Below the pieces are notes generated by a model. That model made no database searches. It was not told the origin of the DNA and saw only the letters and a program-made list of their open reading frames with translations. The position numbers and the translations under genes were made by a program. This document shows positions 5,303 through 49,960 of a DNA stretch of 64,000 bases, one piece after another; the first letter of the stretch is position 1; each line of letters opens with the position of its first letter. The DNA comes from Cristatella mucedo (lineage: Eukaryota; Bryozoa; Phylactolaemata; Cristatellidae): positions 1,090,001-1,154,000 of the forward strand of contig WPIO01000118.1 in the NCBI GenBank assembly GCA_009760855.2. Direction: 5' to 3'.

Positions 5303-5381
5303 GCGGCGGATAAGGTTTTCGACCGTGAAGATCAATTTGCCAGTGCATGGCAGGCATGTGCTCACACAATTCAAACCTATG
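5303..5381 (+). CDS. UBR exon 1 in window (residues 1-26)
   Basis: The acceptor is TTTATTGTAG and the donor is G|GTAAAT. Phase 0 in, phase 1 out. It encodes AADKVFDREDQFASAWQACA followed by HTIQTY. This parallels the UBR1/2 segment with a D-R/E-D cluster followed by W-x-x-C-A-x-T-I-Q, just before the GKPLF block. The exon is only 79 nt, so the identification depends on its joining in phase to the next exon, where G+AG gives Glu. Confidence 0.8.

Positions 5382-49960: not shown

Follow-up and report, generated by a model that had tools for sequence, protein, structure and literature searches.

The window, i.e. the whole stretch of 64,000 nucleotides analysed here (C20:1,090,001-1,154,000, in an assembly of 572 Mb and 688 contigs), carries what we read, with a probability of about 0.6, as the C-terminal part of a diverged ubiquitin ligase of the UBR1/2 type. 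Its gene would span at least 133 kb and belong to a tandem family, and the protein would have kept the UBR-box fold, lost the reading of type-1 N-degrons and come to bind some other ligand or partner. The analysis shows the exon structure, the homology to the UBR1/2 family, copies of the gene elsewhere in the genome and constraint acting on exons 4-6. On this reading the window would hold ten C-terminal exons, all open, of a gene stretched by transposons, and the product would be a RING-type ubiquitin-ligase scaffold of UBR1 build (CGHxxHxxC and CPxC are found in the siblings) that still has its C-terminal PRT6_C region and the fold of the UBR box. The UBR box would no longer read type-1 N-degrons and would bind another ligand or protein partner instead, and the array would supply ligases of changed substrate choice. 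A UBR1-type family that arose by several duplications in a single genome, and that has leucine in place of the aspartates in all three boxes seen, would be a natural experiment on UBR-box recognition and on the change of substrate by a large ligase.

The nine-exon model of the first-pass annotation could be rebuilt to the base (1338 nt, giving 445 codons and a TAA). All 8 junctions have AG/GT and matching phase, the exon sizes of 75-315 nt are as had been stated, and the conserved blocks follow the same order as in human UBR1/UBR2. The start phases of the nine exons as annotated are 0,1,1,1,1,2,2,2,2, the first being assumed. One detail of that model, the start of exon 4 at 41667, is probably wrong, as an acceptor at 41632 and its frame are kept in four copies. 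The residues ITRFTNFGISP, lying just 5′ of exon 4 as annotated, align with ISQYTSG of UBR1, and the counterparts of exon 4 in two other UBR genes of the genome (on C657 and on the minus strand of C645) appear to open with one codon-completing base; therefore exon 4 most likely begins at 41632, in phase 2. Since exon 3 ends in phase 1, an exon running from phase 1 to phase 2 would then be missing between them. It was sought in 17711-41630 among phase 1-to-2 candidates with good splice sites, and of the four candidates obtained, two of which have a common end, the one at 27770-27869 had the top score (exon 3b, Table 1). With exon 3b and the corrected exon 4 the match to PRT6_C reaches 136.9 bits and forms one continuous stretch (profile positions 24-418 of 451). 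When a shortened protein is scored, PRT6_C barely responds to the extension of exon 4 alone (58.4 bits with no exon 3b, against 57.9 with the junction as first annotated), and the score rises to 64.1-67.6 bits with four shuffles of exon 3b and to 75.2 bits with the real one; part of the gain is spacing, and 8-11 bits of it are residue order. Four copies of exon 3b exist, all 100 nt long and flanked by AG/GT, and its end is also seen at three C33 sites about 155 kb apart, where FVDFVC(T/N)EAK is followed by the same donor. The C657 gene offers no counterpart of it beyond a single weak candidate, and those in the gene on the C645 minus strand are uncertain. A candidate exon 0 at 2823-2945, which reads in phase 0 into exon 1 and adds 2 Pfam bits, was rejected because all of it falls within a repeat that recurs in the window and is also present in four other stretches compared.

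Table 1. Exons assigned to the window gene (window positions) and the upstream UBR-box exons (contig positions).
Feature	Position	Strand	Phase	Remark
Exon 1 (AADKVFDREDQFASAWQACAHTIQTY)	5303..5381	+	ends in 1, start assumed	alignment with human UBR1 begins at chain residue 1321
Exon 2	8877..9032	+	1 to 1	aligned to human UBR1/UBR2
Exon 3	17396..17710	+	1 to 1	315 nt; four genomic copies
Exon 3b	27770..27869	+	1 to 2	100 nt; not in the first-pass model
Exon 4	41632..41774	+	2 to 1	likely start 41632 (first pass: 41667)
Exon 5	41864..41972	+	1 to 2	
Exon 6 (YPLTAKPLITLP block)	42532..42666	+	2 to 2	
Exon 7	42779..42946	+		C-terminal zinc motif altered: has CLHCG, lacks C-x4-CC
Exon 8	43423..43497	+		75 nt; without the YGETDxGL stretch found in C657
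Exon 9	49768..49960	+		acidic tail; stop TAA 49958-49960
UBR-box exons (two)	~C20:1,006,593-1,006,870			83 kb upstream of the window

The 445-residue model matches Pfam PRT6_C with 112.7 bits (2.7e-32, cut-off 26.2), and its best matches are human UBR1 (5.7e-20) and UBR2 (1.2e-19). With these matches the earlier assignment to UBR1/UBR2 stands as far as the family is concerned; it does not stand in the sense of an ordinary orthologue, which is the gene on C657 (LCGKAFRNGEPTYSC and RDCALDPTCVFCMECF, CDCGD, ClpS, a RING with CIVC, CGHTMH and CPLC, and the end DWQHL). Taken singly, the open frame around exon 4 gives 23 bits for PRT6_C (4.4e-5, below the cut-off of 26.2) and 0.0095 for human UBR1, and the other nine of the ten open frames so tested have no PRT6_C match. 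A search of NCBIfam gave no match, nor did Rfam within the window. For exons 3, 4, 5 and 6, each taken alone, the UBR1/2-like paralogs of this genome give better scores than the UBR3-like gene on C55, of whose locus 20 kb was compared and which is so named from its UBR3 features. Exons 1-2 and exon 7 give ties between UBR1/2-like and UBR3-like (23.9 vs 23.5 bits each), and exons 8, 9 and 3b do not discriminate. At the level of sequence, PRT6_C and exons 3-6 support a place in UBR1/2 taken broadly. A gene of the UBR3 clade would be compatible with the six-sequence tree, where support is 58 and 61 at two deep nodes, the window branch is 1.42 and the placement with UBR1/2 or UBR3 is left undecided; UBR3 is likewise a UBR-box ligase with a PRT6_C match (the C55 gene), and is described in PMC4506424 as a non-N-recognin with a protein as its binding partner. 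We nevertheless hold this origin to be very improbable, as the UBR3-like gene sits on C55 and has a box that keeps CDCGD, and as exons 3-6 of the window match the UBR1/2-like paralogs better over the 20 kb compared.

With human UBR1 and UBR2 (PDB 9wbw, 9wbv) the window gene shares PRT6_C over most of its length, the block order and the zinc ligands of the UBR box in the two exons seen, and is identical to them at 49 and 50 of 160 positions; unlike them, it has the degron-pocket aspartates replaced, lacks C-x4-CC and YGETDxGLxRG, and possesses an acidic tail. A second, less diverged UBR1/2-like paralog is found on the minus strand of C645 at about 583-622 kb (RING CGHGMH / CPFC). It shares the PRT6_C exons with the window gene, to which it is identical at 51 of 164 positions, but keeps the full C-terminal cysteine motif. 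Beside C657 and this paralog the window gene appears to be a third, more diverged kind of UBR1/2-like gene.

The first pass had proposed to look upstream of the window for the UBR-box and RING exons, and this was borne out for the former. Two UBR-box exons, reading RDCPHNVAPECLDCFLKGKHINHRCQ and EIFPDGEVCLCGLSEGLNGLQECEIH, are located 83 kb upstream of the window; a pattern search of C20:990,001-1,006,600 did not reveal the first exon of the box. Further upstream matches follow in family order at C20 1,058,182, 1,060,175, 1,066,528, 1,066,892 and 1,068,796 (E 0.022, 2.7e-7, 0.12, 0.88 and 6.7e-6), of which only 1,060,175 and 1,068,796 are strong alone, and the top match of one bait fell outside the family order (C20:1,074,126, E 0.023). 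Three more copies of the exon 4-8 DNA, 85-94% identical, occur at C645:200,728, C645:24,110 and C192:21,373, and exon 3 has its partners on the same three stretches; the other genomic matches to the DNA of exons 4-8 are a short repeat. A further altered UBR box lies at C645:66,931. On C20 itself, a second altered box is present at 1,171,492 on the same strand, 17 kb past the end of the window, and is probably that of the next gene of the array. Identity among the three boxes is 86-89% over 1.3-1.8 kb. C645 carries, in this order, a UBR box (66,931), RING (156,992), exon 3 (183,845), exon 3b (191,637) and exons 4-8 (200,728-203,061), and the parts seen on C20 follow one another in the same way. 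The two contigs also agree in spacing, with 125.0 kb (C20) and 133.8 kb (C645) between the UBR box and exon 4, and 38.0 kb and 40.4 kb between exon 8 and the UBR box that follows. This common order and spacing is the main ground on which the UBR-box exons and the window exons are presumed to be one gene and the array is taken to run head-to-tail. If the UBR box is so linked, the gene would measure at least 133 kb from UBR box to stop. As C20 ends at 1,248,512, the gene that begins at 1,171 kb would have its C-terminal part beyond the end of the contig, and the C192 copy may be that part. From C33:4,114,805 to 4,450,755 there are three copies of more distant kinship, spaced at about 150-165 kb and each with a RING-half and an exon 3b match (RING sites at 4,114,805, 4,278,635 and 4,429,289), and RING pieces on C452 and C393 (99%) may be further copies or allelic duplicates. 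The copy counts are lower bounds, the search scoring its best candidates only, with at least four close copies (C20, C645, C192) and at least three distant ones (C33). Among the papers listed in the literature searches, none describes UBR1-like genes in an array with such a changed UBR box.

All three window-type UBR boxes read CLCGL where C657 reads CDCGD. The nine zinc-ligand positions covered by the two UBR-box exons are kept in all three copies, in the standard numbering of the ligands. Against zf-UBR the three boxes obtain 24.6 (window-linked), 24.2 and 26.2 bits at a cut-off of 25.2, while the C657 box obtains 60.8. Both N-degron aspartates (Asp150 and Asp153) are leucine in the box that we infer to be linked to the window. 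According to PMC10687169, Asp150 of UBR2 binds the amino group of the N-terminus, Asp153 binds the side chain of arginine, and D153A is reported to abolish binding. As both aspartates are lost in the linked box, the gene is not to be filed as an N-recognin, and its pocket residues argue against binding of type-1 N-degrons. The term N-recognin used in the first-pass annotation is therefore probably wrong in function, the linked box being without both aspartates and no ClpS core being found in the readable sequence. UBR boxes without N-degron binding are known, and for most of them PMC4506424 describes function and partners as not shown. An ordinary UBR1/UBR2 N-recognin would also give the PRT6_C and UBR1/UBR2 matches, the exon order and the upstream UBR-box exons. 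We regard it as improbable, given that the canonical gene with CDCGD, ClpS and RING is the one on C657, that the linked box reads CLCGL, and that the window gene is without C-x4-CC, YGETDxGLxRG and the WQHL end.

As for the other domains of such ligases, the ClpS core had no match in C20:1,006,801-1,069,000, the sole match there being at C20:1,014,209 to the stretch C-terminal to ClpS (E 0.003). The RING, for which the upstream check did not succeed, had no convincing match in the readable part of C20 up to exon 1 (best 0.017, running through stops). Exactly 5,000 N fill C20:1,085,001-1,090,000, directly before the window, and RING exons could lie there. A RING-like match at C20:1,023,896 was rejected as being out of family order and without clean splice sites. 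In the siblings the second half of the RING reads CGHKLHYAC and CPYC on C645, and CGHKFHIAC and CPIC on C33, from which we infer ligase activity for the family. Of the C-terminal CLHCG/C-x4-CC motif, which presumably binds zinc, the window gene keeps CLHCG and the later H and C and has lost C-x4-CC, which is also missing from the siblings. Exons 8-9 do not contain the YGETDxGLxRG stretch that C657 has, and the terminal loop is altered. Exon 9 ends in an acidic tail, without the WQHL end of C657.

Comparison of sibling copies is a way to test a long, repeat-rich gene without a transcript. In the four copies exons 4-8 have lengths of 143, 109, 135, 168 and 75, intact AG/GT and no stop, and in each of the 6 pairs they show 0 gaps over 630 aligned bases, against 2-9 per 919-1416 bases in the introns. 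Exon 3 is open in all four, one of them being 18 nt shorter, in frame. The dN/dS of exons 4-6 is 0.05-0.26 over the 6 pairs (0.12-0.23 in pairs with the window copy). For exons 7-8 the three pairs that include the window copy give 0.93, 2.21 and 1.51 and the remaining three 0.35-0.63, values that stem from 2-8 synonymous changes. For exon 3 the ratio of dN to dS is 0.8 or higher in five of the six pairs, and for exon 3b dN exceeds dS in three of six. Pooling exons 3, 3b and 4-8 gives 0.56, 0.87 and 0.77 for the window pairs and 0.49, 0.47 and 0.38 for the others. The UBR-box exons are no better conserved than the introns in three copies (identity 154-161 of 181 vs 252-260 of 293-295), and their uncorrected dN/dS is 0.43, 0.78 and 0.76, from 60 codons only. 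Under a random model, 81-120 uniform substitutions lead to a mean of 3.7-5.2 stops and a zero-stop chance of 0.028-0.005, and the changes counted between the window and its siblings number 81-100. The copies have the look of coding genes that evolve fast outside exons 4-6, a trait more marked in the window copy; the weak conservation of the UBR box and the high dN/dS outside exons 4-6 fit relaxed constraint too. A young pseudogene, i.e. a recently decaying window copy beside functional members of the array, would agree with the dN/dS of 0.93-2.21 for exons 7-8 of the window copy and with a readable C20 that has no RING match where the siblings have one. We find this unlikely in view of the exons seen, which carry no stop or frameshift at the zero-stop chance given above, and of exons 4-6, which are constrained in the window-copy pairs as well. 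It is also possible, and here we are tentative, that the UBR1-like tandem family has kept the zinc fold, repurposed the N-degron pocket and allowed its C-terminal exons to change fast, making it a variable substrate-recognition array, e.g. in defence or the germ line.

Repeats, defined by matches with E<1e-10 within the window or to other DNA compared, cover 18,348 of the 44,658 bases from exon 1 to exon 9 (41%, a lower bound), which falls short of the earlier statement that most of the span is transposon. Repeat masking had also been seen as a threat to the exons, and none of the nine exons lies in the detected repeats, so masking these repeats would leave all nine. A short repeat with many genomic copies (76-86% identity) is located between exons 7 and 8 at window 43203-43350. 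At 9729-10308 a long (AC)n is followed by about 104 copies of TATC, giving the spurious open frames THTH and LSIYLSIY. Remains of reverse transcriptase are seen at 19138-19815 on the minus strand (RVT_1, 64.3 bits) and at 55853-56320 on the plus strand (28.0 bits, just below the cut-off). Pfam gave no match for the open frames 36574-36891, 36911-37054, 15238-15465 and 36030-36281; the first two of these adjoin within a large intron (36574-37054) and are perhaps a worn mobile element.
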